From positions 62,001 through 126,000 of the forward strand of contig NZ_JAUHHC010000001.1 of NCBI RefSeq assembly GCF_030410485.1: 64,000 nt of DNA, written 5' to 3'. This DNA comes from Roseateles violae. Its GTDB lineage: Bacteria > Pseudomonadota > Gammaproteobacteria > Burkholderiales > Burkholderiaceae_C. The position numbers and the translations under genes were made by a program. Below, one piece after another: positions 20,626 through 50,707 of the stretch (positions are counted from its first letter, which is position 1; each line of letters begins with the position of its first letter). The notes beneath the pieces were generated by a model. The model was not told the origin of the DNA. It searched no databases and saw only the letters and a program-made list of their open reading frames with translations.

Positions 20626-20674
20626 TCTGGTGGCCTGGGGCGGAATCGAACCACCGACACGCGGATTTTCAATC
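20626..20674. repeat. att site, far end: 49-bp copy of the tRNA-Phe 3' half
   Basis: These 49 bases are identical to 50,659-50,707, which hold the 3' half of tRNA-Phe from the anticodon loop to CCA. Identity stops sharply on both sides: at 20,625 (g versus a) and at 20,675, where the rest of the tRNA is absent. This is the classic footprint of integration by a tyrosine recombinase into a tRNA 3' end. It marks one boundary of the mobile element. Confidence 0.93.
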
Positions 20675-22447: not shown

Positions 22448-24532
22448 TCAATTGAGCACCAACAAGGCGCCGCGCTTTGCCCGAGTCAGCGCGACGTACA
22501 ACAACTGCCGGTGATTCGCATTCCCTTCCGTTGCTGCGACATAGATACTTGGTGCAACTACGGCAACGCAATCGAATTCAAGTCCCTTGGCTCGATGCAT
22601 CGTCGACATGTACACAGTGCCTCTCTCGTCGGTATTCTTGCTCTGCGCGGTGATTGCAACCGTCGGCACTCCCGCTGCCTGCAGTTGTTGAGCGAGCGCA
22701 TCACGCACCTTTTCACTCGACGCAACCACGCAGAAGCTAAGCGTCTCCTCCGCTTTGCTGTCGGCCGTCCGCCACTGTGAGAGAAACTTCGCGACCTCAC
22801 CGTAGGCACTTTCTAGGCCTGTTACGTTGACTATCGTTGGAGCAGGGCCATGTGACAGCGAGCGATAGCGAATGGTTTCATCATGGCCACCATCAAGGTC
22901 ATCCACCTCGATACCCTCCAGCAGCGCCACGGCCTGCCGCCTGATTTCGTCGGTCGTCCGGTAGTTGATGTAGAGCTTCCTGGAGCGTCCCCGAATGTCG
23001 ATGCCGCACTTGCTCATCGCCGCTTTGTGTCGGCTGTAGATGCGCTGGTGACCATCTCCTACGAAGAACAAGTCGTTCTCACCTCGTACGACCATCGCTC
23101 GGAGAAGCTTCAATGCCTGTGGCCCAAAGTCCTGAGTCTCGTCAATGACAATCGCGCTGTACTTCCCGGTGGCTTCCACGTCAGCGGCGAGCAACGCGGC
23201 AACCTCCCGATAGGCGTCATCGACGTCCTTCAATTTGCGGGATGCCAGCTGCCCTCGGTACTCCTCGAATACCGGCCACACCGCATCTCGTTTTGCACGA
23301 CTCAGCACCACGCCGCGACCGATACGTCGGGCCATCCGGTACTCATCCAGGGCTGTGATGCCCTGCGCCAGGACCACGTGCGCGAGCTCCTGCTCGTAGA
23401 AGTCGTCCGGCAAGTCAAGGCCGGTGTCACGAACTGCAAGTGCGGCTTGCCACGCTTGCAACGCTCCTTCCTGCTTCCGGTCATAGACGATGCGGTGTTC
23501 GAGCTTGCGGGTGCGAAGGAATGCATTTACCCAGGCATCGAGATTGCGGACCTCAAGTTTGGCGAGAGTTGATGCGCCGCAGAGCGTCTTGAGGTTCTGC
23601 TCGACGTCCCCGGCCAAATTGCGCGTGAATGTCGTGAACAACACCTTCTGGCCATCCTTGGTGCGGTTCTCCGCCAGCCACTTCGCGCGGTGCATGGCAA
23701 GGACCGTCTTGCCAGTTCCGGCGCCACCCAGCACGCGGACAGGGCCACTGCGGTCGCCGACGGCGAGCTTCTGCTGCATCGGATGCAGGAACACCCGCCA
23801 CTGCGCAAGAGGCGCATTCAAAATGGCCGCCAAGGTTTCATCGTCGCTGACCACGACGAAGCGAGATTGGGACTCTGGTGTAGCCAGCGCGGCCGCGAAA
23901 TCCTGAAGGTCGATGACCTTATCGACGCGCGTCTCGCGTGCATTGAGAACCTGGCTAACTGTGTCGCCAGCCGCCACCAAGAACAGACCTTCGTACGCCT
24001 CCACGGGGAGCTGCGACTGAATGGCATCCAGCTCTGCATCTGAATGCACGCCCTTCGCGAGGGTCAGCAAGTCCTCGGGAACGCCAAGGCTCATCAGCTC
24101 CCTGTCCTGCAGGCTCGCAAACAGCGGTGTTGCTACTGGCGTAGGTGCGGTCGCGGTAACTACGTCAGTCGAAACCGTTTCGGTAACTTGCTCCAGGTTT
24201 ACCAGTTGCATTGCACCGGTAACGGGGTTAATGGCCAGCTTACGACTCTCCGCCCAGTGATAGGCCGAGTCGTGGTGGTCTACGTAAAGCAGCACATAGA
24301 CGTCGCCTGACGACGGCTTGAACACGATGCCGCGCCAATCGCCGTCGATTCGGACCGACTTCAGGTTCGGGTCCCGAGCCCCGTTGATGTTTTCGTAGTT
24401 GATACCGGAACTTCTCGGGTCTGACTGGAACTTCACCGCCCACTTCATCACTTTCGTGTGAACGCTGGAAGGGAGTTTCGACAGCTGGATGAGGAAGTCG
24501 TTGCTCAGCGCAACTTTTGGTTTGAGGCTCAT
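22448..24532 (-). CDS. UvrD-type helicase with an N-terminal RelE/ParE-like domain
   Basis: A 694-residue protein. Residues 1-105 look like a RelE/ParE toxin fold: FLIQLSKLPSSVHTKVMKW, then NLKSVRIDGDWRGIVFKP and DVYVLLYVDHHDSAYHWAES. From about 255 it is a superfamily 1 helicase: Walker A GGAGTGKT (about 267), Walker B VIDETQDF (about 462), and late motifs HRAKGLEF and LYVALTRAKRGAL (about 680). It stops just after motif VI, so no C-terminal nuclease is present. Last gene of the defence operon, 4 bp after the large helicase. The RelE-like part may act on ribosomes or RNA, or may be a repurposed binding module; its catalytic residues cannot be judged here. Confidence 0.85.
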   Translation of the reverse strand: MSLKPKVALSNDFLIQLSKLPSSVHTKVMKWAVKFQSDPRSSGINYENINGARDPNLKSVRIDGDWRGIVFKPSSGDVYVLLYVDHHDSAYHWAESRKLAINPVTGAMQLVNLEQVTETVSTDVVTATAPTPVATPLFASLQDRELMSLGVPEDLLTLAKGVHSDAELDAIQSQLPVEAYEGLFLVAAGDTVSQVLNARETRVDKVIDLQDFAAALATPESQSRFVVVSDDETLAAILNAPLAQWRVFLHPMQQKLAVGDRSGPVRVLGGAGTGKTVLAMHRAKWLAENRTKDGQKVLFTTFTRNLAGDVEQNLKTLCGASTLAKLEVRNLDAWVNAFLRTRKLEHRIVYDRKQEGALQAWQAALAVRDTGLDLPDDFYEQELAHVVLAQGITALDEYRMARRIGRGVVLSRAKRDAVWPVFEEYRGQLASRKLKDVDDAYREVAALLAADVEATGKYSAIVIDETQDFGPQALKLLRAMVVRGENDLFFVGDGHQRIYSRHKAAMSKCGIDIRGRSRKLYINYRTTDEIRRQAVALLEGIEVDDLDGGHDETIRYRSLSHGPAPTIVNVTGLESAYGEVAKFLSQWRTADSKAEETLSFCVVASSEKVRDALAQQLQAAGVPTVAITAQSKNTDERGTVYMSTMHRAKGLEFDCVAVVAPSIYVAATEGNANHRQLLYVALTRAKRGALLVLN

Positions 24533-24536
24533 CGTT

Positions 24537-27500
24537 TCAATCCTTGTTCATCAGGCTCAGCCCGAGGTGTTGAGCAACCGCTGCAGCCCAAACAGTCCCG
24601 GCAATTTGGCTAAGGGAATCATCCAGCACCATCACCGTCCAGCCCTGAGATACCCAGGCATCCAAGAGGTCTGCCTGGTCGTCGCGCAGCACCGCGAGTT
24701 TCTGGGCGACCCAACAGAGTTCAGCGTCGGCCAGCACCTTCCCGTTCGGGTCAGCCAATTCCAGGCCAACTTCTGGAAGTTCTGCACCAGACTTCGCCAA
24801 GGCGCGCAGGCCAGCCTGAAGTGGCGTCAGCGTCTGCTTCAGGACGGCATCCCATGCCACGCCCAAGCCATCAGGCTGCGTTGATGTGGCGGGCTGAGCT
24901 AGAGGTGCTCCACTGAGCACGTGGAACGTCCCTTCGTCGAGGCCCGACGAAGTGACCAGCCAAAGGCCAGGCAAGGTCTGGCTCGTGTTGAACACGTGCA
25001 ACCACTGTCTCCATGCGAGGTGCAGCTCCTCCTCACTTTCGGCAGCTACGTCATCAAGGACCAGCACGCCAGGTGCGGACCAATGGTCAGCAACGTCCAC
25101 CCCTGCCTTCGCCACGTCAAGCGGCCACGCACCAAAGTGCAGGCACCTGCCGCCAGGCTTTGCGACGCTAGGCGCGAATTCCTTGCCGCTCGCCAGTGCA
25201 TGGTCCGGAAGTCGGTGCTTCCATTGCCCGAAGGTGTCTTCACAGGCACTGCGCTCCTGCGGCGTGTGAGGGACCATCAAGAATCCCAGCCAAAGCGCAT
25301 TGCGCTGTAGCTGACGTACCGCCTTGTCTACCTTGTCGCCATCGACAGGTGTTGCGAGCCAGGCGAGCAGCCGCGCCACTGCGTGGTGGGTGAAAGCCTG
25401 CTCCTGCGCGCGCGGAACTCCTGGCGGGGCAATGCTCCCGTTGTGTCGCGACATCGTGACCAGTGGCGAATCCAGGCCTGTGTTCAAGTCACCTTTGAGC
25501 GCCGTCGCAACATCGTTGTGGGTCACCGACCAAACCCAGAACTTTCCGCTCGTAACGAGTGCGCTGCGCTTGAGCGCATCGGCTCCCAACGAGTCCTTGT
25601 GATAAGCCCATCCATCGCAGAACACCGCAATCGGTCGGCGATTGCTGGACGCAGCCCAAGGCCAGATAACAAAGTCAGGCTTGCTGGCGACGGCGACGCC
25701 ATCGTCCGGTCCAATATCTCGCTGGGGCTCAATCTTGTAACGCTGCCCACCCACCTCCAAGACGTAACCCGACTTCCCGTGCACAACGTCCTGCACAAGC
25801 TTCGTCAACGGCACGGTGCCGACCCCACCTAGCCGCTTCAGGCTTTCGATAAAGCGAGCCTCAAGCACCGAGTCGAAGTTGGGGTTGATGTAAATGTCCG
25901 AGATGGTCTTGACCCGCTCCAGCTTGCCCAGAGACCCGACCAGCTCGGTCAGCACGGCCCGCGCGTTGTCTCGCGATACCAGCTCCATGTTCCTGCCCAG
26001 ACGGTATTGGTAGACGCAGCGGTAACAGCCGTCCTTGTCTGGGTCCTGGTTACACGGACACGCCGTCACAGCCTGCAAGGCCATGGTCAGCACATCGCTC
26101 AGGGTGCTTGCGTCATGAGCGAGCAGCTGGTGCAGGTACCCCGTGCCTCCGGGCACCGAATCGAACAGCATCACGTAATGCCGCCGAGGCCCGCCGTTCT
26201 TACCGGGCTCGTCCTGCAGCACCATCCGTAGATGGTCCACCTTGCCGCCGAAGCGCTTCTTCAGACCCAACTGAACAGCCGCCATGAAGGACTGCACGAC
26301 GCGCTCGTCGACACCGTTCTTTGTGTACGGCACAAGGATTCGCAAGGCTTCCGATTCGAACTCCCGGTACAGGTATAGGCATTCGAGGATATTGGCCGGG
26401 TCGTCGCTGCCATGTTTGGGGCAATCGAAGCTGTGGTTCTGCTCCGCCCCTTCGCTATTGCGCTTAGGTGCCTTCTGCACCTTGCCGCAATGGCGACATA
26501 GTCGGAAGCCTGGACGGCCGGACTCCTTGTCCGCGACCTTGAAGGATTCTCCGGGTTTGCTCAACTCGCCGAAGTTGACGTCGCGGAAAGTGACGCGTGA
26601 GATGAACTCGAAGCCGAATGGCAGCTCACCAGTATTGATTTGCCAGGCCTCACGCACGTTCTGCGGCAGAAAGTTCGCCATCAGCTGCCGTACGTAGTAC
26701 TTGGGTTCCCGGTCGTCCGCGCTATCGTCAATGCGAACCTCGGCATCATTGCTGTTGGCGATAGCTTGCTTGAATCGCAGCAGGGTTCGACGTTGGGCTG
26801 CATCCGACCACATCGCATCACCGCAGCGCGGGCAGGCCATGTGCACATCAGCCTCCAACGTCAGATTCTGCATGTGATGACATGAGGGGCAGAAGCGCCA
26901 ATCGTCCGTGCTGGCGAGGCTCATGTTGACCTGGTCCACCTCCACGCGGCGCTGGTTCGCATAGAAGCGGTTCTCCGGCGCGAACTCCGACAGGGCGGAT
27001 TGCGCTGGCCGCTCATACTTGAGCGTGCTCAAAGTGACGTAGGCACCTTGCCCCGGCTCGTCGTTGCCGCGCTTGCGCCACAGGACCGACTTCAACTCGA
27101 CGCCGGACTCCGGGAACGCGTAGTTCGGAATCAACCCGGCGTCAGTCAAGGTGTTCAGCAGGTCGCGACCGTTGATTTCCTTGATGAGCTCCAGCAGCTT
27201 GTCCCGTTCGCGCAGCAGGTTGCTGAGCTCTTCCTTGGTCGCGTCATCCTGCGGCTTCTGCAGCACGCGGGTCTTCGCCTTGTCGAGCTCGTCCTTACGC
27301 TTCTTGTAGCTTTGGCGTTCATCCACCAGCTCTTGCAACGACTTCATCAGCCGAATGCGCAAGCCGTCAGCCTCGCCTTGCCCCTGCATGAAGTCCAGCA
27401 GCCGGCCTCGCACCACGTCGTCGATGTCGCCGGCCAGCATCTTGCAGAAGCCTTGGAACAGGCGGTCCTCGTGTTGCACCACGTAGTCGCTGAAAAGCCG

Positions 27501-30500
27501 AGGGAAGCGGTCCGCTTTGGCCTGTTCCATCGCATCAAGCGCCTGAGAAGTTTTCTCGGGCAAGGCATTCGCGCTGGTCAGACTCGCAACCCAATCGTCC
27601 ATGCAGAAGGCGAAGAGCTGACGACGCAGAACCTCAGCAGCTTGGAGGAATATCCCCGGCGGCGACACCTCGCCAGCCATCATTTCCTGCGTTTCGGCGA
27701 AGAAGTAGAGGTCGTGCGGGCTGTTGCCGTCTGCCAGCGTCGTGGTCATCGCATTGCCATCCCGACGACCGGCTCGGCCTACACGCTGCAGAAAGCTTGC
27801 CTGATTCGGTGGCACCGAACACAAGAGCACCGACGATAGGTCGCCGATATCCACGCCCATCTCGAGCGTGGGCGTCGCCGACAGCAGGTTTTCAAACCAG
27901 GGCCTGGGCTGCTTGCTTTTGAAGCGGCTTTCCAGCGCCTCCCTGATGGGACGTTCCAGCAGACCTGTGTGCTCGGCGGCAATCACTCGTCGCAAGTCAC
28001 CACGGCTGAAGCGCTGCGCCCACCAACCGGCCGCATCGCCGACCAGCACCTCGTACTGGAACTCCGGCGCATCAAGGCACGGCATTCCCAGCAGCAGCTC
28101 CGCGTAGCTACGTGGCACCGTCATGCGGCGCTTGCTCCCCTCCGTCGCGATGAACGCAAGCTCGGTATGAAGCTCCAGCGACTCAGGATTCAACGACCAA
28201 GTGTCACCCTGATGATGCGGCGTCTTGATGACCATCCTCCGGCCGAGCATCGCGTTCAACGCTTCGATATACATGTCGGCAGCCAGGCCCTTGCCGAGCA
28301 GCGTTTCACCACCTAGCGCTGCATGGGCCCAGCGGTCAAACCACGTCGCGCGCCTCTGGTTCCGTAGCTTGTCGAAGTCGCGCTGAGTCCCTAGGGTGAG
28401 GAAGACCGGTCTGGGCGTGCTCTGGCCCATGGACGGAAGCCACTCGCGACGCCCGCCAGTCTCGCGGAGTGCGTACACGTTCCCATCCCCGGCATAGCTG
28501 CCAAGCTCCGCATGCATGACCGCGCCACGCCGGCGCAAATGCATCAGGAAGCCCCAAAGCCAGCGGGCAACCGTTCGCTGCTCCAACCCCTTGGCGCCGA
28601 ACTGCTCGTGGTAGGTCGGTAGCAACTCTTCAGCCACTTCGTCCAATATTTGCCAGGGCACGCAGAGTGCGGCCTTGCCAATCCGCTCCAGGGTCCGACC
28701 GCGCTGGCTTTGATACGTGAACTCCGTGTAGACCTGCCAGAGGAAGCGCTTCCTGACCTTGGCCGGCAGCTTGCTGTGGGCAGGCAGCTGCAAGTGCTTC
28801 GGCAACTCCACCGACCAGTCGTGCTGCCAAGTCATGTTTGGCGCGATGAATTCCGAGACCAACTCCTCTGGGGAGAGGAAAAGCACCGAACCTGGAGTGG
28901 CGAAGCGTTTCTCGACCTCGTCAAGAAAGTTCGACCAGCTCATCACCGGCTGATTGAGCTCGTCCAGCACGTGAGCCAACCCAGTACGCACGTTGTTCAG
29001 CCAGGTGCGCGCCCCAAAGAAGCCTGCACGGTGCGCTGCATCCTGCACCGAGTCAGAAAAGGCAATGAGCTTCTTGTCGTCGTTGAATACGCTGGCCCAA
29101 CTGCTTTCGACCACCTGCGAACCCAGCGTGGCGTTCCGCGCACCCAGCAGCAGCAGGGAGTCCGTCTCGCCGCATGCAGGGCAGGCGTTGTCATGCAAGG
29201 TGAACTGTGCCTGGCCTCGGGTCTGCGACTTCTGTGCGATGACCCGGAATACGTTAAGCAGCTCCTGATGCCCGCATGCCAGGCAAGCATCCTGTGCCTG
29301 CTGCAAAGTACCGCAAGCCACGCATATCCGTTCCGTAACACCCTCCACATGACTGCGTTGGATGCTCTCGGCGGCATAAAGCCGAGTGGCTTCGGGTCGA
29401 CGGGAGAACCAGGTGTTGTAAATCTCATCCAGCTTGGTCGATACCTTGCTGCTGCCTTGAACGAGGCGTGACAGCCACCCCGTTGTGCGGCACTGGTTGC
29501 ACTGAATCATCGGCAGGTACACACCATCGCGCTCGCCTGGCAGGTCGCGCTCACTGCGCAGTCGTGTGCCGTCCGGCGAGACGCTGAGCTTTCCGACCAT
29601 GCGGCGCAACTCGCGCACCCAAAGCTGCATGCGCAGGGTAACCAGGGGCTGCCGATTCTCGCGAAGCGCCCAGGCCAACAACACCAACAAGGCGTCGAGT
29701 ACCTGGCCGACCTGGGTTGAGTTGGCGGCAGGCATGTGGCGGGCAAACGCCTCAGTCAGTTCTTGGTAGCCGACCACGCCCCCCTTTCCCAGCTTCAGCA
29801 GATTCACGAAAAGCTGATGCTGCTTCAGCAGCGCACCAAGCGCCTGTCGCCACGCCGCGTCGCTGACGTCGAGGGGCTGTACCTCTTCGGGGAAGAACAG
29901 CTTGAACCAAGCCTGGACTGCCTGCTCGGGCGTTGCATAGCGGGCTGCATCTAGCTCCGCGGCGAGCTCCGCACGGAAGGCGAACATGAAGTTCACCGGT
30001 GCGTCCTCCAGGAAGGCGCCGACCGTCTGTCGGCTTTCGGTCACCACCGCTTGCTCGTCAAACGGCACCCCGAAGACCTGTCGCGCGTAATCGCGCAGCG
30101 GCTTTGTATCGGAGGCCCCCCCAAGCGTTGCCGAGGTACCAGCACAGATGAGGTGCTGGTCCGGCGTCTGCAAGCGTGCTCGAAGGCGACGCAGCAGCAG
30201 GGCCAGGTCAGTGCCTTGTGCGCCATCGAAGGTGTGCAGCTCATCGACCACGACGTAACGGAGAGTGGTCGGTGTGTTCTGCGCCCAGAGCTGCCGGTCC
30301 TTGGGTCGCAGCATCAGGTAGTCCAGCATCTTGTAGTTGGTCAACAAGATGTCTGGCGGGTGCTTGCGCAAGGTCTCCCGGTCGGTGATGACCGAGGTCG
30401 CTGTCATGACCGCGCCCTCGCCAGGCGCCGATGCCCAACCACCCACATAGAGACCTACACGCAAGCCCACAAACGCTGGAGTGGACGCGACAAGCTCTGC

Positions 30501-30938
30501 AATGCGGCGTGCCTGGTCCGAAGCCAGTGCATTCATCGGATAGATGACCAGCGCCTTGACCCCGGCTTCTTTCGCTGCCTTTGCTCGCGCACAGTGGTCC
30601 AGCACTGGATATAGGAAGCACTCGGTCTTGCCGCTGCCGGTCCCGGTAGCCACCAGCGTACTGAGCCCCAACCGCTGGCTCGACATGCGCTCCCATGCGC
30701 GCTCTTGGTGGCTGAAGCCGGGGAAGGTCGTCTCAAATCCCGGGAAGAAGCCCCGTCCAGCACTACCCACACTGAACGGCAGCCCAACCTGGACGTAGGG
30801 GCCCTTCAACCAGGCCTCCTCGTCCTCCACGAACCGCGTTATCAGCCCATGCATGAACGAGTCGGCGGGCTCAAAAGCCGAAATCAGGAACTGCTTGAGT
30901 CCAGTCTGGATGTCACGTGCGAGCAGGGATGGGAGCAT
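24537..30938 (-). CDS. Giant YprA/DruE-type helicase with DUF1998 and Vsr-like nuclease domain
   Basis: A 2133-residue superfamily 2 helicase. Walker A ATGTGSGKTE (about 97-106); DEAD-type box VVDELHTFDGAQGTD (about 230-244); SATLG; several CxxC zinc knuckles (about 475-620); helicase C core with TPTLEMGVDIGDLS (about 1015-1028) and QRVGRAGRRDGN (about 1055); more zinc knuckles (about 1345-1500); and the DUF1998 signature CNQDPDKDGCYRC (about 1632). After this, PDFVIWPWA and IAVFCDGWAYH (about 1750-1785) fit a Vsr/MutH-like PD-(D/E)XK nuclease fold. Size and order match Druantia DruE and the YprA helicase family better than the separate DrmA and DrmB of DISARM. It is sixth in the operon, 28 bp after the SIR2 gene. 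Confidence 0.88.
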   Translation of the reverse strand: MLPSLLARDIQTGLKQFLISAFEPADSFMHGLITRFVEDEEAWLKGPYVQVGLPFSVGSAGRGFFPGFETTFPGFSHQERAWERMSSQRLGLSTLVATGTGSGKTECFLYPVLDHCARAKAAKEAGVKALVIYPMNALASDQARRIAELVASTPAFVGLRVGLYVGGWASAPGEGAVMTATSVITDRETLRKHPPDILLTNYKMLDYLMLRPKDRQLWAQNTPTTLRYVVVDELHTFDGAQGTDLALLLRRLRARLQTPDQHLICAGTSATLGGASDTKPLRDYARQVFGVPFDEQAVVTESRQTVGAFLEDAPVNFMFAFRAELAAELDAARYATPEQAVQAWFKLFFPEEVQPLDVSDAAWRQALGALLKQHQLFVNLLKLGKGGVVGYQELTEAFARHMPAANSTQVGQVLDALLVLLAWALRENRQPLVTLRMQLWVRELRRMVGKLSVSPDGTRLRSERDLPGERDGVYLPMIQCNQCRTTGWLSRLVQGSSKVSTKLDEIYNTWFSRRPEATRLYAAESIQRSHVEGVTERICVACGTLQQAQDACLACGHQELLNVFRVIAQKSQTRGQAQFTLHDNACPACGETDSLLLLGARNATLGSQVVESSWASVFNDDKKLIAFSDSVQDAAHRAGFFGARTWLNNVRTGLAHVLDELNQPVMSWSNFLDEVEKRFATPGSVLFLSPEELVSEFIAPNMTWQHDWSVELPKHLQLPAHSKLPAKVRKRFLWQVYTEFTYQSQRGRTLERIGKAALCVPWQILDEVAEELLPTYHEQFGAKGLEQRTVARWLWGFLMHLRRRGAVMHAELGSYAGDGNVYALRETGGRREWLPSMGQSTPRPVFLTLGTQRDFDKLRNQRRATWFDRWAHAALGGETLLGKGLAADMYIEALNAMLGRRMVIKTPHHQGDTWSLNPESLELHTELAFIATEGSKRRMTVPRSYAELLLGMPCLDAPEFQYEVLVGDAAGWWAQRFSRGDLRRVIAAEHTGLLERPIREALESRFKSKQPRPWFENLLSATPTLEMGVDIGDLSSVLLCSVPPNQASFLQRVGRAGRRDGNAMTTTLADGNSPHDLYFFAETQEMMAGEVSPPGIFLQAAEVLRRQLFAFCMDDWVASLTSANALPEKTSQALDAMEQAKADRFPRLFSDYVVQHEDRLFQGFCKMLAGDIDDVVRGRLLDFMQGQGEADGLRIRLMKSLQELVDERQSYKKRKDELDKAKTRVLQKPQDDATKEELSNLLRERDKLLELIKEINGRDLLNTLTDAGLIPNYAFPESGVELKSVLWRKRGNDEPGQGAYVTLSTLKYERPAQSALSEFAPENRFYANQRRVEVDQVNMSLASTDDWRFCPSCHHMQNLTLEADVHMACPRCGDAMWSDAAQRRTLLRFKQAIANSNDAEVRIDDSADDREPKYYVRQLMANFLPQNVREAWQINTGELPFGFEFISRVTFRDVNFGELSKPGESFKVADKESGRPGFRLCRHCGKVQKAPKRNSEGAEQNHSFDCPKHGSDDPANILECLYLYREFESEALRILVPYTKNGVDERVVQSFMAAVQLGLKKRFGGKVDHLRMVLQDEPGKNGGPRRHYVMLFDSVPGGTGYLHQLLAHDASTLSDVLTMALQAVTACPCNQDPDKDGCYRCVYQYRLGRNMELVSRDNARAVLTELVGSLGKLERVKTISDIYINPNFDSVLEARFIESLKRLGGVGTVPLTKLVQDVVHGKSGYVLEVGGQRYKIEPQRDIGPDDGVAVASKPDFVIWPWAASSNRRPIAVFCDGWAYHKDSLGADALKRSALVTSGKFWVWSVTHNDVATALKGDLNTGLDSPLVTMSRHNGSIAPPGVPRAQEQAFTHHAVARLLAWLATPVDGDKVDKAVRQLQRNALWLGFLMVPHTPQERSACEDTFGQWKHRLPDHALASGKEFAPSVAKPGGRCLHFGAWPLDVAKAGVDVADHWSAPGVLVLDDVAAESEEELHLAWRQWLHVFNTSQTLPGLWLVTSSGLDEGTFHVLSGAPLAQPATSTQPDGLGVAWDAVLKQTLTPLQAGLRALAKSGAELPEVGLELADPNGKVLADAELCWVAQKLAVLRDDQADLLDAWVSQGWTVMVLDDSLSQIAGTVWAAAVAQHLGLSLMNKD

Positions 30939-30966
30939 CAGGCTGTCGTCCTATGCAATTTACTTT

Positions 30967-32378: not shown

Positions 32379-32403
32379 GGCGCAGTCCTGCTGTTGCAGC
32401 CAA

Positions 32404-35400
32404 TCATTGCAGGCTCCCCTCTCGCTCCGCCTCAAAGAACGCCCATGCGATGCGGTAGTCGTCCTCGCGGTTGGCGCGGACGAAGGGGGCGACGTAGCGG
32501 CGCTCCACGGTGCGAGGGCCGCCGGGCAGGGTGTCGTCGGTGACCCATTGGGTGACGACGGTGCCATCGGGGACCTTGGGCTGGCCGCCCTCCGGCGTGT
32601 CGGCATAGGTCCACAGGTCGTCCCAGCCGAAGTTGCCGTCGCGGGTTTTGCCGTCGGAGGCCTGGATGCGGGCCTTGGGCGTCTTGCTGCCGCCTTTGCG
32701 CGGCAGGCCGACGCCGACAAGGCCCTTGCTGTTGGTGAAGACGATGCGGCCGTTGATGTCGTACCAGGTGTCGCGCTCGTAGCCCTGCATCACCGGGAAC
32801 TGCACGCGGTAGATGAGCAGCAGTTCGTCCAGTGTCAGACCGATGGCTTGTGCCACCAGAACGTCGGTTTCAACCAGCGCCATGCGACGGGCGTAGTCGC
32901 TGCGTAGGGCGCAATGTCGAGCCCAAGTGGAAGTGAGGCCGCTCCAGAAGTCCTGCGGGAGGCGCGGGTTAATGGACTGGCTCCAGCGTTGCTCCGCGAA
33001 CTCAACGTCGTAGACCTGCTCCCACAAGGGGGCGAAGTGGGTCGTAAGGCAGTTAAGCGACAGCGCGCGAGCGAAGGCGCTGGGCATCCACTGCTTTGCG
33101 ATGGGCAGTTGACCTACGAATGAAAGGTTCGCATGCCCAGCTCCGGTGGACTTGACACGGAAGTCTGCAACCAGAGAGGCAAAAAATGTCAACGCAGCGC
33201 ACAGTTGCTTGTTGTCCTGGAATGCATGTGACAGCACGGTGTGTACGTGCGAAACACCCGGCGGAATGAGCGCGACATGAAAAGTGCGCTCAGCGGTTTG
33301 ATTGAGCATTTCGCGGTTCGCCAAGCGATACCTCGCAGAGTGAGGTCCCGCCGAAACACCGCTTAGCTTTGCGACAGGTAGCCGACGTGCATACTCGGCT
33401 GAGTCTTCCATCGGCCGGTAGTTGGTGCGAGGTAAGTAGTCATCGGGAATGCTACTGAGGTCCAGAACGTCATAGTGATTGCTGGCGACACATCGGTTCA
33501 TAGGTGTCTTGTTCAGCGGAGTGCCAACAAAGAAGTGCGGGCCGGAGAGCACCCAATCCTCAGGCGTCTTTGGAAACGCGTTGTCGCCGGGCGGGCGGCG
33601 GACCAAAGTGCCGTCGCGTTGCGAGTACGTCTCGTCGAACATCACGGTCGAGTAGTAGCCATCGCCTAGGTCTGCCAGCCGTAGCGGCCAGGCGGCTAGC
33701 TTGGCGAGCACACTGCTGAGTGTCTGCGCGTGTATTGCCGGGAGGCGAGCGCGGAGGGCTGAGGTACCTGGTTCGTCATAAAGCTGGGCAAACACCGCCA
33801 ACGCGGCTTCATCCGCGCGAACGATGCGTTGGGCATGGCCGGCAGTGTTCCATTGGCCGGCCTCATTCTTGTAGCCACCAACAACGCCATTTCCATCATG
33901 CTGGTAGCAGGTGTCAACCGTTGTCGGGGTAAACAGGTTGGCCAGTTGGTCAAAGGCTGGGGCGCTGCGCTGCGCACCGTAGATGTTGACGCTGTATTTG
34001 GTGTGGTGGTCGACTTCGGCGAAGAGTTGCAGTTCGTTGACGAACCCGAAATGCCGTCGCAACCGCCTGTACATCGCCTCACGCAGACCTCCCCCCTTGG
34101 GGTCGTCGTACGGACCTTCTGGATGTAGCAGCCCGGTCACGCCCTTCGCCCCATTCAGCCCCCAAGCCAGCGGCATAAAGCACTTATACAGGTTGGTCTG
34201 CACGCCCTTAAGTAGTGGGTAGTTCTGAACGGCATTCAGGCTGTTCTGCGTGCCCTCAGCCTCTTCCAGTTCGGCGGTCCACGCGACCTGCAGACCAGTA
34301 TGTCGAGCAAAGGCCTGCTCGCGCGCCTTCGTCAGCTCATTCGCGCTAAAGGCTCGGATGGCGAAAAGCGGGTTGAACTCTCCCAGCACTCCGGCTTCGT
34401 TCCACTCCACCTTGAGCCACGGTGGGTTCCCCAGGATGAGGTCGAAGCCGCCGCGCTGAATCAGCACATCTGCAAAGCACAGCTCCCAGTGCATGAAGCG
34501 CCGCCGAGAGGCGATGCCCTCCACCACCGCCACGCGCGGGAAGTGCTCGCGCAGCTTCTTGATGCGCAGTTGCCCAAAACGGTCGTGCAAGTTGGGCTGC
34601 TCGGCCGGCTGTTGCAGCGTGAGTTGCACCTCGAACCCCGCCAAAGTCGGCTGCACCTCTGGCACCAGCAGCTGAGGCTCTTCCTTTGCGGGCAAAAGCT
34701 CCAGCGAGCCTTGCGGCGTCAGGTCCACCACATTGCCTTCCAGGATGGCGCCGACCTCCATCCACCACGCCTCCCGGCTCGGCAGTCGGTCGCTCTCGGT
34801 CATGGGCCAGAACCACAGCGCGCACCAATAGTCCATCACCAGCTTCAGCCGTCGGAAGGGTGTGGCGAGGTCGCCATCCTCGTTCAGCAGACCTTGGCGC
34901 CGGACGTCTTCCTTTTGCGCGCGGGACAGCGGCGATTGTTCGCCGTCGTGAGAATTTTGATGCGGCCAGATGTCGAGCGGGTCCTCGGTCTTGGCACGGT
35001 CACGCGCCAGCGCCTGCGTATGCTCTATCCACAGCTCTTCGACCTTGGCGCTCAGTTGCTGCAGGCGTGCCACCTCGTGCTGCTCCAGCGGCGCGTTGAA
35101 GGCCTTGCGCCATTTCTTCAGCCGCTCAAAGTCATCGGGGTAGAGCTTCTTGGCGTCCTTGTCGCCGTAGTCGGCCATGCCTGGGTCGGGCAACAGGAAG
35201 TGCCAGATTTCGTCGGGCCTACGGGGCTCAGCCAAGTTGACCTTGCGCGGCGGCTCCTCATGCCAGGCAGGCTTGGCACCTTTTATAACGCTGGTGGCGT
35301 GGAACACCTGGCGGCGTGCGCCAATGAGGCTGTTGCCGGCGAAGAGCTGGTACCCGAACCAAGGCACGCGGGCCGGCTTGAGCGGCAGCGGGTTGCCGTC

Positions 35401-37491
35401 CTTGTCTTCGGTGGGTTCGCCGTAGATGGCGTTCAGCCACAGCGAGACCTCGGCAAGCTCCACGGCCACCGGGTTCAAGTCCACACCGAAGACGTTGCGG
35501 TCGGCCAGCACCATGCGGACCTTCTGCAGTTCCTGCGGGTACTCGTCGTGGGGGATGCGCTTGCCTTCCTCCTGCTGCTTGCGCTCCAGGTAGGCGTCGG
35601 CCAGCTGGTTCACAGCCTCGTTCAAGAAGGCCGCGCTGCCCATGGCGGGCTCGCAGACGGTGAGGGTGAGGATGTCGTCGGCCTTCTGGACGCGGCCGTT
35701 CTCTGGGGCGAGCAGCTCCTTGAGCGCGTACTTCACCAGGCACTGAGTAAGCACCTGCGGGGTGTAGTAGCTGGCGCTCTTCTGCCGGTCTCGCCCGGCC
35801 AGGCGGTAGATGAAGCTGCCCTTGGGATGCATGCGCAGCTTGCGGTGGCCGGACTCGGTGAGGTCGTAGACCTTCTCATCGTCCTTGTACTCGTCGATGC
35901 GGCTGCGAGGGACGAACCAGGCGTTCTCTAGCAGGTCGGCATCGCTCTCCTTGGCGCGGGACTTGGTGCTGCTTTCGTCGTCGGCATCGCCGTCTTCGTC
36001 GCCATCGTCATCGGCCGTCGCGCGGGCCTTCTTCGGAGCGGGCTTGACCTCGTAGAGGTCTTCCTCGGCAAAGAAGCCCCGGTAGCTGAGCAGGGCCTCG
36101 TACACGGCACCCAGCTGGTTGATGGACAGCAGCTGGTAACTGACCCGGCCGCTGCGACGGCCCTTGCCCTGGCCCTTGCTGAGCGAAAGCAGCCGGACGA
36201 CCTTCTGCCAGACCTCGTTGGGAAACTGCACCTTGCTGAGAAGCGGCATGGCGCTGTCGTCGAACAGGCGGCTGTCTAGCGGGGCAAGCGCGAAAGTGTC
36301 TTTGGCACCCGGGGTGCCGCCGTGAAGTTCGGGCTGCGCGCTGACGCCATAGCCCTGGGACACAAGCTTGAACAGGCGGCGCAGGGAGATGTCGAAGTAT
36401 TTGCCCTCGCGCGACTGCGGCGTGGGCAGGGGTTGCAGCTCCAGGTCGCGCAGGCTCTCCAGGCTGTAACCCCGGAGGTAGACCTCGCTCTTTTGGATGG
36501 GCACGTAACCAAGCTCGGGCCGTGCCTCGATGTAGAACATGAACAGCAGCCGATATACCATGCGCAGGCTTTCCAGGCTGAGCTGCGCCGCATCCAGCTT
36601 GTACTGGCCGGTGTAGATGCTCTTCTTGCTGCCGCTGGCCTGTTCGTCCAACCGGCGAGCGGCTTCGTTGCCCAGCAGCTCGATGGCCTCGCGCAGTGCG
36701 TACTTCAGGCTCTCGCTGACGCTGAAGGCGTTGGCATGAGCGCGTTCGTCCAGCCGCTCCAGCAGGCTGCTGCCCTCGCCGGGGGCCAGGCAGTCCTTGT
36801 GCAGCAGCACCGCGCAGGCCTTGAGCGTGTCGGCGTCTTTGCGGTCGAGGATGTCCGCCCAGGTGAAGCGCAGGGCGCGGTTGTTTGGCCACTTGTAACG
36901 GTCCAGTAGCAGCCAATCGTCCAGGCCGAGCAGCAGGACGTAACGAGGCGGCTGGTCAGCGCCGAAGACGGCATCGGACAGCAGGTCGGCCCAGGTTTCA
37001 CCGGCCAGGTCCCTTGGCACACTGCCGTTGCAGTAGTGGAACGACAGTAGTTGGTGGTCCAGCAGGTCTTCACCTTCAGCGCCCGGCTGGTAGGCCGGGA
37101 TGATGGCTAAGCGCTGGCCCTGAACCTGCCAGACCGGGAGCGGGGAGCCGGTCACGAACTCTTCAGTCGCCAGCTCTTTGGGCGCAGACGGGTAACCGAG
37201 TGCCTGCAGCAGGCCCGACTGCATTTGTGCGAAGGCGTGCCAGCGCTCATTGGGCTCATGCGCACGCTGTACCTGGCCGCGCAGCGCGAACCAACGCTGG
37301 GCCCAGGACTGCAGGCGCTTGGGCGGCGCGCGGTGGGCGTCGTCGCCAGCGTGCTTGGCCTCTGCAGCGTCCCAAGCGTCCAGGCGCTCCTTGACGTCGT
37401 TCTTGAAGACTTCAGCCAGGTAGTGGTGGCTGTAGAACTCGTTCTCGTTTGTGATGCCGGCGAAGGTTTGAACGGCTTCCAGGACAGGCAT
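32404..37491 (-). CDS. Eco57I-class N6-adenine DNA methyltransferase (DrmMI-like)
   Basis: A 1695-residue protein centred on an amino-methyltransferase domain: SASYYTPQVLTQCLVKYAL (about 575-594), SAM motif I CEPAMGSAAFLNEA (about 615) and catalytic NPPW in LILGNPPWLKVEW (about 1018). A long helical N-terminal region and a large C-terminal target-recognition region flank it, with a charged DDDGDEDGDADDESS linker near 500. No nuclease motif is evident, so it may only modify, marking self DNA for the helicase partners. It begins 2 bp after the SNF2 gene stop. Size and operon position match the adenine methylase of class 1 DISARM-like systems. Confidence 0.9.
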   Translation of the reverse strand: MPVLEAVQTFAGITNENEFYSHHYLAEVFKNDVKERLDAWDAAEAKHAGDDAHRAPPKRLQSWAQRWFALRGQVQRAHEPNERWHAFAQMQSGLLQALGYPSAPKELATEEFVTGSPLPVWQVQGQRLAIIPAYQPGAEGEDLLDHQLLSFHYCNGSVPRDLAGETWADLLSDAVFGADQPPRYVLLLGLDDWLLLDRYKWPNNRALRFTWADILDRKDADTLKACAVLLHKDCLAPGEGSSLLERLDERAHANAFSVSESLKYALREAIELLGNEAARRLDEQASGSKKSIYTGQYKLDAAQLSLESLRMVYRLLFMFYIEARPELGYVPIQKSEVYLRGYSLESLRDLELQPLPTPQSREGKYFDISLRRLFKLVSQGYGVSAQPELHGGTPGAKDTFALAPLDSRLFDDSAMPLLSKVQFPNEVWQKVVRLLSLSKGQGKGRRSGRVSYQLLSINQLGAVYEALLSYRGFFAEEDLYEVKPAPKKARATADDDGDEDGDADDESSTKSRAKESDADLLENAWFVPRSRIDEYKDDEKVYDLTESGHRKLRMHPKGSFIYRLAGRDRQKSASYYTPQVLTQCLVKYALKELLAPENGRVQKADDILTLTVCEPAMGSAAFLNEAVNQLADAYLERKQQEEGKRIPHDEYPQELQKVRMVLADRNVFGVDLNPVAVELAEVSLWLNAIYGEPTEDKDGNPLPLKPARVPWFGYQLFAGNSLIGARRQVFHATSVIKGAKPAWHEEPPRKVNLAEPRRPDEIWHFLLPDPGMADYGDKDAKKLYPDDFERLKKWRKAFNAPLEQHEVARLQQLSAKVEELWIEHTQALARDRAKTEDPLDIWPHQNSHDGEQSPLSRAQKEDVRRQGLLNEDGDLATPFRRLKLVMDYWCALWFWPMTESDRLPSREAWWMEVGAILEGNVVDLTPQGSLELLPAKEEPQLLVPEVQPTLAGFEVQLTLQQPAEQPNLHDRFGQLRIKKLREHFPRVAVVEGIASRRRFMHWELCFADVLIQRGGFDLILGNPPWLKVEWNEAGVLGEFNPLFAIRAFSANELTKAREQAFARHTGLQVAWTAELEEAEGTQNSLNAVQNYPLLKGVQTNLYKCFMPLAWGLNGAKGVTGLLHPEGPYDDPKGGGLREAMYRRLRRHFGFVNELQLFAEVDHHTKYSVNIYGAQRSAPAFDQLANLFTPTTVDTCYQHDGNGVVGGYKNEAGQWNTAGHAQRIVRADEAALAVFAQLYDEPGTSALRARLPAIHAQTLSSVLAKLAAWPLRLADLGDGYYSTVMFDETYSQRDGTLVRRPPGDNAFPKTPEDWVLSGPHFFVGTPLNKTPMNRCVASNHYDVLDLSSIPDDYLPRTNYRPMEDSAEYARRLPVAKLSGVSAGPHSARYRLANREMLNQTAERTFHVALIPPGVSHVHTVLSHAFQDNKQLCAALTFFASLVADFRVKSTGAGHANLSFVGQLPIAKQWMPSAFARALSLNCLTTHFAPLWEQVYDVEFAEQRWSQSINPRLPQDFWSGLTSTWARHCALRSDYARRMALVETDVLVAQAIGLTLDELLLIYRVQFPVMQGYERDTWYDINGRIVFTNSKGLVGVGLPRKGGSKTPKARIQASDGKTRDGNFGWDDLWTYADTPEGGQPKVPDGTVVTQWVTDDTLPGGPRTVERRYVAPFVRANREDDYRIAWAFFEAEREGSLQ

Positions 37492-37493
37492 GG

Positions 37494-40430
37494 TCAGGCT
37501 CCGGCAGCTTGTGGGTGGCAGACCCCGGCGAGCACCTGAATCCAGGGCTGCGGCTCGGTGGTGAGGGTGTCACGCACCCACTGGCGGTAGTCGTCGAAGA
37601 CGCGATTGATTTGCTGGCTGCGCTGCTCGAAGCGACCGCGCTTGACGGTTTCGAGCTGCTTCTCCAAGTCCAGCTGAAGCTGCTCAACCTGGCGGCCTTG
37701 CAGGCGCTCCAGTTCCGCCAGCGTGCCTTCCAGCCGCTGATTAAGTTGCGCCGCGAAGGCTTGCTGGCGCTCCAACATGTGCTGGTGCATGCGTTGCACG
37801 GCGGCGGGGAGCGCCTGTTGCATCAACCCTTGGAGCGCGGCCAGACCGTCGGTGTAACCACGATTGGGCAGACCGCCTGCGCGGATGCCCGCCCTGGCGA
37901 TGAAGGCATCAAAGTCCTCAAGTTGGAAGGCTGCTTCGCCGACCCGGCTGGCCACCTGCCATTCGACCAGCAGGGGCTGGCCTTTGCGATTGGGCACCAG
38001 GCTCATCAGGATGAAGGCCTGCTCGTTTGGGGCCAGCTTCTGGCTTTGCAACAGAGGCGCGGTGTGCCGGCCGAAGTGGGTGAGCACGCGGTCGCCCAGC
38101 CATTCCATGATGGGGTGCTGCGGCCAGAGGTAGTGGAGCTGCGGCCAGGTGTCTTGCTCTTGGCGTGCCTGGCGAGCTGTCTCAATGGCGGCCGCCATGC
38201 GCTTGGGGTCGGCACATAGCGAGTAATGGTCGTTGTCGGCCTGGACCTCTCGCGGAAGCTGCTTGAGGCGGTCCTGAAGGTCACGTGGCGCCGTGAGCGC
38301 GATGACCTTCTCGCCGTCGTGCGGTGTCCACTGGCACAAGGTCTGGCCCTGGTTCAGCTGGGTCAACGCGGTATTGGCGTAGTGGTAGTCGCTGTCGAAC
38401 AGCGAGGCCGGCTCGTTGATTTTCTGGAGGCTGCTAGGGGCGACCGGCTCCGGCGCAGTGGCTGCGGCGTCGCCTCCACCAAAGAGCTGCATCAGCCAAT
38501 CGCCCTCGTTGTCGGAGTCGTCGGCGCCGGCCCGTTCCAGCTTGGCTTCCACGGCCTCGGGGGCTAGGCCTTGGGCCATGAAGTCCGAAACCTTCTCGGC
38601 TTCCTTCTCGGGGTCATAGACGTTCAGGAAAGCCGAGGGGTCGCCGAGGTTCAGGTAGGCCTGTTCGTCCTTGGCTTGGAGGATTTCAAGAATGCGCAGG
38701 TCGCCGCGAATCCGGTCGGTCACCGTCTCGGTGAACAGGTAGACGATTTGCGGCTGGTGCTTTTGGCCGTAACGGTCCACGCGGCCATTGCGCTGCTGGA
38801 AGACCATCAGCGACCAGGGCAGGTCGAAGTGGACCAGCCGGTGGCAGAAGTAGTGGAGGTTCAGGCCTTCACTGGCAACGTCGGAGCAGAGGAGGACGCG
38901 GATGGGGTCGTCCAAGCGGCCGAAGCGGTCGACCAGCTCCTGCTGGTCGGTGTCGGACATCTGTCCATGGAGGACGGCGACCTGGTTGGGCTTGAGCTTG
39001 AGGTCGGCGCATACCTGGCGCTCCAGCCAGCGCAGGGTTTCGATGCGCTCTGAGAAGACGACGAGACGGTCGGCCGGGTCTTGGCGGGTCCAGCCGAACT
39101 CGGATGCACGGAGCTGCTCTAGCAGTCGCTGGTACTTGCTGAATGAGGCGGCAGAGGGGTCGCCGACGATGGCCTGCAAGGCGTCGGCGAAGACGCGCAG
39201 GCCGTCCACCTCTTGCTGCTCCTCGGGTGTCGCGTTGGGTTTCTCGGTCAGCAGCTTGATGCGCTTCTGGGTCGATTCCAGGGCAGCAGCCGGACTGGAG
39301 AACAGGGCCTTCTGCATGCCGACGCGCTGCAGCTCTTGCTGGCGGCCCGCCTTGTGTTGGCCGCCTTGGGTGAAGGGAATGGCAAGCAGGGCGCGGTAGG
39401 CCGCCTCTTCGTGCGCACTGGCGGGCTTGCGCAAGCGCACAGTGTTGCGCTCCTGGAAGTCGGACTGGACCTGGTCCTTGATGTCCTTCTTGAAGCGACG
39501 GATGACCAGGCCCTTGTTACGGAAGTCGTCCGGGGTGTAGTGGTCCGGGTCGGAGATGGCCGTCGGGTCCAACAGGCTCATCAAGGACGCGAAGCTGCGG
39601 GCCGAGCCGTCGTGCGGCGTGGCCGACAGCAGCATCAGGGTGTCGGAGCGGTTGGACAGTAGTCGCGCCAGGCGGGCGCGGCGTGACAGGCCGGATTCGC
39701 CTGCACGCGCCGCCACGTTGTGGCACTCGTCGATGACGATGATGTCCCACCAAGCGTTCTCAAGATAGTTTCTGTACTCCAGGTTGTTCTTGAGGGTGTC
39801 GATGGAGATGATGCTGCGGTCGAAGTAGTTGAAGGGGTTGTGGTTGGCGGGGATGCGGTTGCGCACCCGTGCCAGGCCCACGGAGTCCAGGCGAACCAGC
39901 GGGATGGAGAAGCGGCTCCACCATTCCTTCTGGAACTGGGTGAGCATGGCTTTCTGGGTGACCACTAGGATGCGCTTGCCGCGACCACGCTGAATCAGCT
40001 CGGTGGCGAGGATGCCGGCCTCCAGCGTTTTGCCCAGGCCCACGGCATCGGCAATGAGGATGCGAGAGCGCGGCTGGCGCAGCGCCTGCAGGGCGGGGTC
40101 GAGCTGGTAGGGCACAAGGTTCATGACCCCGCGATGGCCCAAGTGGATGCGCTCGTCGTTGGCCACGCTGCGCCGGCGCATGCTTTCCAGAAACAGCACC
40201 GATGCGTTATAGGTCGGGCTGGCGTCCGGCTCCAGCCTAGTCTTGGCGGGGTCGAGGACCTCGATGGCGTCTTCCAACGAGGTCAAAAAAAGCGCCGTTT
40301 GACCACGGACCAGGTCGGATATGCCGTCGCAGGTCAGCAACCAGCCACCATCGGTAGCCGGGTCTACACGGCGGACAAGCCATTCTTCATCTCGGATGAC
40401 CGCTCGGGCACCCGGGGCAATTGGAAGCAT
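37494..40430 (-). CDS. SNF2-family helicase (DrmD-like)
   Basis: A 978-residue Swi2/Snf2 ATPase. Seen: Walker A ADAVGLGKTLEAG (about 127-139), DEAH-type box VIDECHNVA (about 232-240), motif III LLSATPHDG, and C-terminal helicase motifs LLCSDVASEGLNLHYF and QQRNGRVDRYGQ (about 550). The start at MLPIAPG is preferred: it follows GGGAG, and the extra 23 upstream codons overlap the region of the RHH stop and are Arg-rich. DrmD is the SNF2 helicase of class 1 DISARM, and the adjacent adenine methylase fits. Second gene of the operon, 19 bp after the RHH gene. Confidence 0.9.
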   Translation of the reverse strand: MLPIAPGARAVIRDEEWLVRRVDPATDGGWLLTCDGISDLVRGQTALFLTSLEDAIEVLDPAKTRLEPDASPTYNASVLFLESMRRRSVANDERIHLGHRGVMNLVPYQLDPALQALRQPRSRILIADAVGLGKTLEAGILATELIQRGRGKRILVVTQKAMLTQFQKEWWSRFSIPLVRLDSVGLARVRNRIPANHNPFNYFDRSIISIDTLKNNLEYRNYLENAWWDIIVIDECHNVAARAGESGLSRRARLARLLSNRSDTLMLLSATPHDGSARSFASLMSLLDPTAISDPDHYTPDDFRNKGLVIRRFKKDIKDQVQSDFQERNTVRLRKPASAHEEAAYRALLAIPFTQGGQHKAGRQQELQRVGMQKALFSSPAAALESTQKRIKLLTEKPNATPEEQQEVDGLRVFADALQAIVGDPSAASFSKYQRLLEQLRASEFGWTRQDPADRLVVFSERIETLRWLERQVCADLKLKPNQVAVLHGQMSDTDQQELVDRFGRLDDPIRVLLCSDVASEGLNLHYFCHRLVHFDLPWSLMVFQQRNGRVDRYGQKHQPQIVYLFTETVTDRIRGDLRILEILQAKDEQAYLNLGDPSAFLNVYDPEKEAEKVSDFMAQGLAPEAVEAKLERAGADDSDNEGDWLMQLFGGGDAAATAPEPVAPSSLQKINEPASLFDSDYHYANTALTQLNQGQTLCQWTPHDGEKVIALTAPRDLQDRLKQLPREVQADNDHYSLCADPKRMAAAIETARQARQEQDTWPQLHYLWPQHPIMEWLGDRVLTHFGRHTAPLLQSQKLAPNEQAFILMSLVPNRKGQPLLVEWQVASRVGEAAFQLEDFDAFIARAGIRAGGLPNRGYTDGLAALQGLMQQALPAAVQRMHQHMLERQQAFAAQLNQRLEGTLAELERLQGRQVEQLQLDLEKQLETVKRGRFEQRSQQINRVFDDYRQWVRDTLTTEPQPWIQVLAGVCHPQAAGA

Positions 40431-40449
40431 CTTGTTGTTCTCCCTGCGT

Positions 40450-40653
40450 CTACTTCGTTTTATTCGCGCTTGTCGTTGGCTCGTTCCGCTCTGCAACACC
40501 CACTCTTAGGTCGTGCTGTTTGCAGTAGTCCAGTATCAAAACTTCGAGCATGTTTGACAGCGTTCGGCGCTCACGCTCGGAGGCCAAGCGGAGCAGTTCC
40601 TTCATTTCTGGCGTCATACGAAGGTTGATGGCCTCAGTCTTCCGTTGACTCAT
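40450..40653 (-). CDS. Ribbon-helix-helix repressor, first gene of the defence operon
   Basis: A 67-residue protein: basic beta-strand TEAINLRMTPEMKELL followed by two helices (ASERERRTLSNMLEVLILDY), the CopG/Arc-type ribbon-helix-helix pattern, with a short charged tail. The start MSQRKTE is chosen because the fold begins there; an ATG 18 bp upstream is possible. Only 30 bp upstream lies a perfect TGTACA palindrome over the predicted -10 box, so this protein very likely represses its own operon. A lone regulator that shuts down a defence operon limits autotoxicity or opens the system on entry to a new host (inference). Confidence 0.8.
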   Translation of the reverse strand: MSQRKTEAINLRMTPEMKELLRLASERERRTLSNMLEVLILDYCKQHDLRVGVAERNEPTTSANKTK

Positions 40654-47082: not shown

Positions 47083-47310
47083 AACCAAATTATCGCGTCG
47101 AAGATGGCAACGCCACGCGTAGGTGACTGCCAAATGCCAGCGCCCCCTCAACAGGAGGCCGACTCAATGGAACACGGATGAGCATCGCCTCCTACGCCGC
47201 TGGACGCAGAAGAGCTGCTAGATGGCTTAAGGCGCTCCTCGCAACCCGCACTCGTCGAAGCTGGCTACCTGGCAGGGTGGCGCCGACGCCATCTCGTCTA
47301 GGCCGAGCAC

Positions 47311-50658: not shown

Positions 50659-50707
50659 TCTGGTGGCCTGGGGCGGAATCGAACCACCGACACGCGGATT
50701 TTCAATC
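50659..50707. repeat. att site, integrase end: 49-bp direct repeat in tRNA-Phe
   Basis: Identical to 20,626-20,674. It covers the tRNA-Phe 3' half from anticodon loop to CCA plus two bases beyond. Because the tRNA gene is kept whole on this side, integration did not damage it. Confidence 0.93.

Follow-up and report, generated by a model that had tools for sequence, protein, structure and literature searches.

A KomB-KomC pair between armB and armC of a predicted ARMADA type II operon in Roseateles violae

A stretch of 64,000 nucleotides from Roseateles violae (RefSeq assembly GCF_030410485.1, contig NZ_JAUHHC010000001.1, positions 62,001 to 126,000), hereafter the window, contains at positions 22448-40653 a defence operon in which a putative KomB-KomC pair, the sensor and NAD+-cleaving enzyme (NADase) of the Kongming system, lies between two genes of a predicted ARMADA type II system. 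The operon consists of seven minus-strand genes (Table 1) whose spacings, taken with the preferred starts, are 19, 2, 25, -4, 28 and 4 bp; the tight packing claimed in a preliminary description of the sequence (2-28 bp gaps or 4-bp overlaps) is thus borne out by measurement. For armA, an ATG at 40430, preceded by a purine-rich stretch, is favoured as start over a GTG at 40499.

Table 1. Coordinates of the operon, its cargo slot and the boundaries of the surrounding element
Feature	Coordinates	Strand	Description
armD	22448..24532	-	RelE-like N-terminal domain + GajB/UvrD-like helicase, 694 aa
armC	24537..30938	-	giant YprA/DruE-like helicase + MZB (DUF1998) + PD-(D/E)xK-looking C-terminal region, 2133 aa
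komC	30967..31830	-	SIR2 NADase homologue, 287 aa
komB	31827..32378	-	HAM1-like sensor homologue, 183 aa
armB	32404..37491	-	PglX/DrmMI-like adenine methylase, 1695 aa
armA	37494..40430	-	BrxHII/RapA (SNF2)-like helicase
small ribbon-helix-helix-looking (RHH) gene, possible repressor	40450..40653	-	sequence only
armB/armC cargo slot	30939..32403	-	1465 bp, contains komB-komC
49-bp direct repeat, 3' part of tRNA-Phe	20626..20674	.	far att site
49-bp direct repeat within tRNA-Phe 50661-50736	50659..50707	.	near att site
tyrosine integrase	48938..50272	-	PF00589 9.7e-24; beside tRNA-Phe

Pfam finds HAM1 (PF01725, 1.7e-35) and SIR2_2 (PF13289, 1.8e-25) in the two genes of the insert, DEAD, Helicase_C and MZB (MZB 8.8e-12) in ArmC, UvrD in ArmD and an SNF2 domain in ArmA. 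The PADLOC library, which is older than ARMADA, offers DruE as the nearest models for ArmC among the matches listed (9.1e-102); it matches ArmA to DrmD (5.1e-97), BrxH (6.9e-58) and one DrmA-labelled model (1.7e-69, weaker than DrmD), ArmB to type IIG and DrmMI, and ArmD to NERD+UvrD and GajB. These domain matches uphold the labels HAM1, SIR2, SNF2, YprA/DruE-like helicase and UvrD that the genes had first been given. The same domain content leads us to reject a DISARM/Druantia hybrid: where the preliminary description saw one operon mixing DISARM, Druantia, HAM1 and SIR2 modules, the genes resolve into an ARMADA II core and a separate Kongming pair. Its remark that separate DrmA, DrmB and DrmC are missing holds for DrmB and DrmC, neither of which appears as a stand-alone protein among the PADLOC matches listed for the seven proteins, but is less clean for DrmA, given the DrmA-labelled match of the SNF2 protein; no Druantia model other than DruE, the DruH partner included, figures among those matches.

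The main text of PMC12458937 gives ARMADA type II a strict gene order: a BrxHII-like helicase comes first, then a PglX-like methylase and a YprA-like helicase, and a RelE-GajB fusion almost always completes the set; in Escherichia coli all four genes (ArmA, ArmB, ArmC and ArmD) are required, and protection is non-abortive, growth not being arrested. This order is kept in the window, with komB-komC inserted between armB and armC, and the YprA-like helicase and MZB/DUF1998 reside, as in ARMADA II, within one 2133-residue ArmC. Eight residues mutated across the four proteins of E. coli ARMADA II are all conserved (8/8) upon alignment to the proteins of an E. coli locus (L018), where their numbering agrees with the published one and they fall in the expected motifs: K157 and D257 in ArmA (numbered from the GTG), N1022 (NPPW) and G618 in ArmB, K104 and D232 in ArmC, and K275 and D464 in ArmD. 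Identity to the L018 proteins is 50% for ArmA, 52% for ArmB, 38% for ArmC and 44% for ArmD. The N-terminal part of ArmD (residues 1-250), whose RelE domain has no Pfam match, is predicted to fold like the RelE/YoeB/YafQ toxins (Foldseek best E 3.1e-3, probability 1.00, none below 0.001), in a model with a mean predicted local distance difference test score (pLDDT) of 76.0, the other four models having 55-68; the RelE half of the earlier RelE-UvrD label is thereby supported. In the C-terminal region of ArmC, 16 homologues all keep the E, PD and FCDGWxxH residues, which make candidates for a PD-(D/E)xK site. Based on the published gene order, the RelE-GajB fusion and the 8/8 conserved residues, the core armA-armB-armC-armD is thus assigned by sequence to ARMADA type II, a kinship that the preliminary description had correctly suggested.

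The two genes of the insert belong elsewhere. In the Protein Data Bank (PDB), the HAM1 protein is best matched by KomB (8zsg, 1.8e-55), followed by 9v0g (1.3e-22) and then PH1917, and the SIR2 protein by KomC (8zsf, 3.2e-68), followed, besides KomC mutants, by 9v0g (5.9e-44) and then ThsA. Entry 9v0g (chains A, E) is itself a solved HAM1-SIR2 pair, the runner-up structural match for both window proteins. The HAM1 protein carries VEHTGL and NEISMR like KomB, where the archaeal PH1917 has IEDSGL and NALSHR; the D and H changed in the KomB motifs are catalytic or base-contacting residues in HAM1 enzymes. An ordinary house-cleaning pyrophosphatase was considered for this protein and rejected, as its motifs track KomB and not PH1917. 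The SIR2 protein keeps TTNFD, and its H150 aligns with the His altered in the KomC(H146N) structure 9xvc. In Kongming, as the relevant passages of PMC12948488 and PMC12774641 describe it, KomA acts on deoxyadenosine monophosphate (dAMP), kinases complete deoxyinosine triphosphate (dITP), and dITP binding to KomB, which has the HAM1 fold, activates the NADase activity of KomC so that NAD+ is destroyed. Sequence and motif matches thus identify the HAM1-SIR2 pair as KomB-KomC, the putative Kongming sensor and NADase (KomBC), and not as an ARMADA part. Outside ARMADA, ten KomB relatives (from four plasmid records, out of 104 that carry one, plus six genomes) were inspected and each is followed by SIR2 (10/10); phage genomes gave no close KomB and one weak match, in a 2.3-kb unannotated record.

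How the pair relates to its host operon can be judged from other ARMADA II loci. An ArmC-alignment scan of a species-genome collection gave 381 relatives, the best 80 of which (77 distinct loci) were analysed. The nearest relative, L020 of Paracidovorax konjaci, has an identical armB-HAM1-SIR2-armC-armD order, its contig beginning within armA. The armB/armC junction measures at least 250 bp in 38 of the 55 loci with both ends visible, with inserts of 738 to 9558 bp. A junction of that size occurs between armA and armB in 2/33 loci (L067 and L079) and between armC and armD in 0/70 (0/65, plus 0/5 rechecked loci in which the ArmC end was initially unaligned); L014-L019 are excluded from the counts of 55, 33 and 65. 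The excess at armB/armC is significant by Fisher's test against armA/armB (p 2e-9) and against armC/armD (p 3e-18), values that ignore relatedness. The armB/armC junction is unscored in 22 of the 77 loci: three start inside armC, in 16 the 0.6-2.5 kb visible ahead of armC contains no armB match, and these are probably filled though uncounted, and L064, L071 and L089 show 8.5-10 kb upstream of armC with no armB. Open reading frames (ORFs) of at least 150 aa within the slot are co-directional with the operon in 98 of 106 cases (40 loci, L014 and L017 included), the ORF picking having weighted the operon strand by a factor of 1.25. ARMADA II thus has a defence cargo slot at armB/armC, of which KomBC is one occupant.

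The cargo is varied and often recognizable as complete immune systems. PADLOC was run on at least one ORF from each of 28 of the 38 filled loci (on some ORFs only, with cut-offs from 1e-5 to 1e-10) and gave a match in 20 of the 28, some of them weak or confined to a single domain (L055, L075 and L095). All four Qat genes (QatABCD) are found in L060 by PADLOC, ZorA, ZorB and ZorE of Zorya II in L061, ZorA in L076 and L087 with ZorB/ZorE homologues by clustering, ZacABC in L065, GajA-GajB (Gabija) in L086, MkoA-MkoB (Mokosh) in L021 and an MkoA homologue in L050, AbiEi-AbiEii (AbiE) in L069, AbiLi-AbiLii (AbiL) in L072, RhuM (PDC-S05) in L035, DUF1016 (PDC-S02) in L070 and PDC-M07A in L049; L033 holds a second DrmD-like helicase, as does L036 together with a DUF262/HEC-06-like protein. 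The scanned slot ORFs of L020, L029, L038, L059, L066, L083, L091 and L093 gave no PADLOC match.

Several occupants recur without being named systems. A family of about 240 aa occurs in six slots (L029 9070-9897, L031 2244-3017, L036 4038-4760, L059 8933-9661, L065 2006-2749 and L066 7025-7744) and is the sole cargo in L031 and L066; the L066 member has no Pfam or PADLOC match and the L059 member no PADLOC match. A second family, of 270-292 aa and with cysteine pairs seen by eye, occurs in three (L014 16009-16830, L029 4702-5577 and L059 8066-8875), with no Pfam match for the L014 and L029 members. In L036 (4905-9927) and L015 (886-7948), a DrmD-like SNF2 helicase (by PADLOC in L036, by eye in L015) followed by an Hsp70/actin-like-looking protein stands just upstream of armC; the latter protein has no Pfam match in L036, and the pair in L015 is preceded by what looks by eye like a KAP-like NTPase.

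Cargo turnover was followed on an ArmC tree (FastTree, 78 rows, no printed support, with neither ARMADA I nor Druantia nor DISARM as outgroup) from which L015, L016 (which shares its genome with L038), L019 and three fragments (L063, L068 and L088) are omitted; the frame-broken ArmC rows L017, L040 and L048 are in the tree and were excluded from parsimony and pair counts. By parsimony, the 56 tips scored (38 with a filled slot, 18 with an empty one) need 12 switches between the two states. Shuffled states need 15.5 on average, and a value that low came up in 20 of 500 shuffles; the slot state changes often, yet is partly inherited. Among filled pairs whose ArmC are at least 80% identical, 4/6 share no cargo ORF (sharing being defined by blastp at 1e-6 over half of the shorter ORF), although in L055/L050, one of the four, a helicase is related under a looser clustering criterion. 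In this same pair, whose ArmC are 92% identical, DNA homology stops at the end of armB and resumes at the start of armC; such sharp breakpoints fit a recombination exchange in conserved flanks. By comparison, L061 and L056 (96%) have several stretches of the slot in common. Between the window and L020, the ratio of nonsynonymous to synonymous substitution rates (dN/dS) is 0.04 for komB (dS 0.47) and 0.08 for komC (dS 0.41), values indicating that KomBC is maintained; it is 0.17 for armB (dS 0.73), 0.08 for armC (dS 0.57), 0.06 for armD 1-457 (dS 1.07) and 0.03 for armA (110 codons, dS 0.46).

Outside ARMADA, the KomBC pair occurs with KomA, with RADAR or alone. A deaminase adjoins four of the ten KomB relatives, KomA-like in L010, L011 and L012 and the RdrB of RADAR in L105; L108 has a fragmentary deaminase match, none is seen beside KomBC in L013, L106 and L107, and L102 and L103 are visible for about 1.5 kb each. 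In L105 (242-7254, genome G1030, contig 53), RdrA, RdrB, KomB and KomC are co-directional, RADAR being followed by the dITP-sensor/NADase pair, and from this arrangement RADAR-made dITP may be read by KomBC. The position of KomBC behind RADAR points to a portable read-out module.

Two exact copies of a 49-bp repeat, one within tRNA-Phe, and an integrase beside that tRNA indicate that the operon itself is the cargo of an integrative element of about 30 kb at tRNA-Phe, and GC content falls from about 0.70-0.73 to about 0.60-0.65 across 20 to 52 kb. ARMADA II islands at tRNA-Phe are on record for E. coli too (figure 5 legend of PMC12458937), and L018 has such an island.

The window very probably holds, as far as genes alone can tell, an ARMADA II operon on a tRNA-Phe element that carries a KomA-less KomB-KomC at armB/armC, an exchangeable site for defence modules. 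In such an arrangement ArmB would mark self DNA, ArmA, ArmC and ArmD would act on unmarked phage DNA, and KomBC would form a second, abortive tier against phages that pass ARMADA. The pair is probably fired when infection yields a dITP-like alarm, as an NADase backup, and some deaminase other than KomA would have to supply the signal. Exchange of cargo would proceed by recombination within armB and armC, the conserved flanks, and the boundary between methylase and nuclease-helicase may tolerate inserts because the two halves are not required in a fixed ratio. The notion of a DNA-restricting core with an NAD-directed suicide arm, already put forward in the preliminary description, survives as the best functional reading, with the amendment that two systems are involved, one inside the other. 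It is rather unlikely that ARMADA II serves in general as a modular chassis whose armB/armC site is a dedicated dock for swapping in complete, unrelated defence systems that are then expressed as a conditional second tier, with KomBC reading an alarm from ARMADA's own attack on phage DNA and needing no KomA.

Several results weigh against this two-tier account. KomB and KomC are rare in the slot, being found besides the window in one of the 77 related loci (L020), 55 of which show the whole junction; HAM1 and SIR2, first taken for fixed members of the operon, thus proved sporadic when synteny was compared, and by the condition that the preliminary description had itself set, a fixed seven-gene system does not hold. 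The partial inheritance of the slot state counts on the same side. There is no KomA in the operon, and protein searches of the window genome, made with no positive control, matched neither KomA nor an RdrB-like protein; nor was a PF00962 deaminase found in that genome (control detected in 8/14), while one is present somewhere in five of six other KomBC genomes, the sixth being the RdrB-bearing one. A distant house deaminase of the PF00962 family therefore cannot supply the signal, and with no KomA found, KomBC could be idle or sense another signal. The nuclease expected at the ArmC C-terminus (Vsr-type) was not recovered by Foldseek, whose best E was 0.11 with TnsA and BsoBI among the weak matches. 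Finally, the co-location of KomBC with ARMADA may be mere co-mobility.

This last possibility is the strongest rival, with a chance not far short of even: KomBC would merely travel with ARMADA, the two being functionally unconnected, in a slot that is just easy to recombine into and where operon transcription expresses whatever is inserted. The diversity of the cargo, the sharp L055/L050 breakpoints and the embedded defences described in other operons all agree with it; mere permissiveness, however, predicts cargo at armA/armB and armC/armD as well, where there is hardly any. An unlikely alternative is that KomBC is triggered through ARMADA, nucleotides released from attacked phage DNA, or a deaminated base therein, feeding KomB without KomA. 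The missing KomA and the occurrence of KomBC behind the RADAR deaminase, which shows that the pair can be wired to different upstream systems, would suit such a trigger, but PADLOC and Pfam find no deaminase domain in the ARMADA proteins, and the Kongming descriptions in PMC12948488 and PMC12774641, in the passages concerned, have dITP made from dAMP by KomA and the kinases. That KomBC is a remnant decaying after the loss of komA is very unlikely: no komA was found in the window genome, but the frames are intact, dN/dS is 0.04-0.08 at dS 0.4-0.5, and a KomBC pair on a Pantoea plasmid likewise has no annotated adenosine deaminase within 8 kb. Highly improbable is a distinct ARMADA subtype of which HAM1 and SIR2 would be genuine subunits, functional only jointly with ArmABCD. 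The tight spacing (25, -4 and 28 bp), the presence of the pair in both the window and L020 and the strong purifying selection speak for it; against it, none of the other 76 loci yielded the pair (the junction being partly visible in 22 of them), other slots are empty or otherwise filled, and away from ARMADA the pair accompanies KomA or RADAR or stands by itself.

The remaining genes around the operon call for brief description. The small RHH protein ahead of armA has no Pfam or PADLOC match, its name resting on a reading of the sequence. Tblastn at 1e-5 across 83 loci found no counterpart, a weak test given the shortness of the protein; 19 loci have room for such a gene directly before armA, and visual inspection of the ORFs starting with ATG there showed none either. 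With no counterpart found in the relatives searched, among which L020 cannot be judged, the gene was rejected as a fixed operon member. Divergent from the operon, 40987-43104 encodes a 705-aa protein with a C terminus that looks by eye like a tyrosine recombinase and with no Pfam or PADLOC match. Also within the element, at 45338-47151, a helix-turn-helix + M78-peptidase-like gene (PADLOC RmrA-like, 4.6e-19) stands beside a convergent 230-aa gene that is PIN-looking by eye and has no Pfam or PADLOC match. Outside the element, a second integrase-like gene and an AAA/OLD-like gene occupy a low-GC patch at 57084-59524.

Because whole immune systems gather at one junction with sharp boundaries, new defences can be sought simply by reading what stands between armB and armC, and the ARMADA II slot deserves a proper survey; the slot families of about 240 aa (six loci) and 275 aa (three loci), which had no family match where scanned, are ready candidates. 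A DNA-restricting system around an NAD-depleting one makes a testable case of layered immunity, and a KomA-less KomBC renders the question of other makers of a dITP-type alarm directly testable.

Three parts of this picture are known already: the ARMADA II core, the KomBC module and the embedding of one defence in another. Compared with ARMADA type II as presented in the main text and legends of PMC12458937, the window agrees in ArmA-ArmD, their order, the RelE-GajB fusion, the catalytic residues and the integration at tRNA-Phe; it differs in having komB-komC at armB/armC, a junction that is empty in the E. coli operons L018 and L019 (which are not the tested strains' own records). The words SIR2 and HAM1 are absent from the main text of that preprint, and the slot was seen neither in its main text and legends nor in the ARMADA passages of two other papers. 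With Kongming KomABC, as far as the published passages describe it, the window shares KomB and KomC, the overlapping gene pair and the motif set, whereas no KomA adjoins its own pair or was found elsewhere in the genome, and the pair is embedded in ARMADA. Likeness to class 1 DISARM and Druantia is confined to the resemblance of ArmA to DrmD, of ArmB to DrmMI and of ArmC to DruE; unlike class 1 DISARM, the window has helicase and MZB in one protein and no DrmC gene among the matches listed, and unlike Druantia it has no DruH or other Druantia partner among them. Embedded defences are described, in the relevant passages of PMC12255303, PMC12629846 and PMC12111858, for Septu in Hma, DarTG2 and PrrC in type I restriction-modification (R-M) and HEC genes in Hma. 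There, as here, one system stands between the genes of another, and the slot, lying behind the methylase gene and ahead of the nuclease-helicase gene, is placed much like the type I R-M site between hsdS and hsdR that DarTG2 occupies in its island; by contrast with these cases, the host operon in the window is a different one, and in ARMADA II a single junction takes many kinds of multi-gene system.

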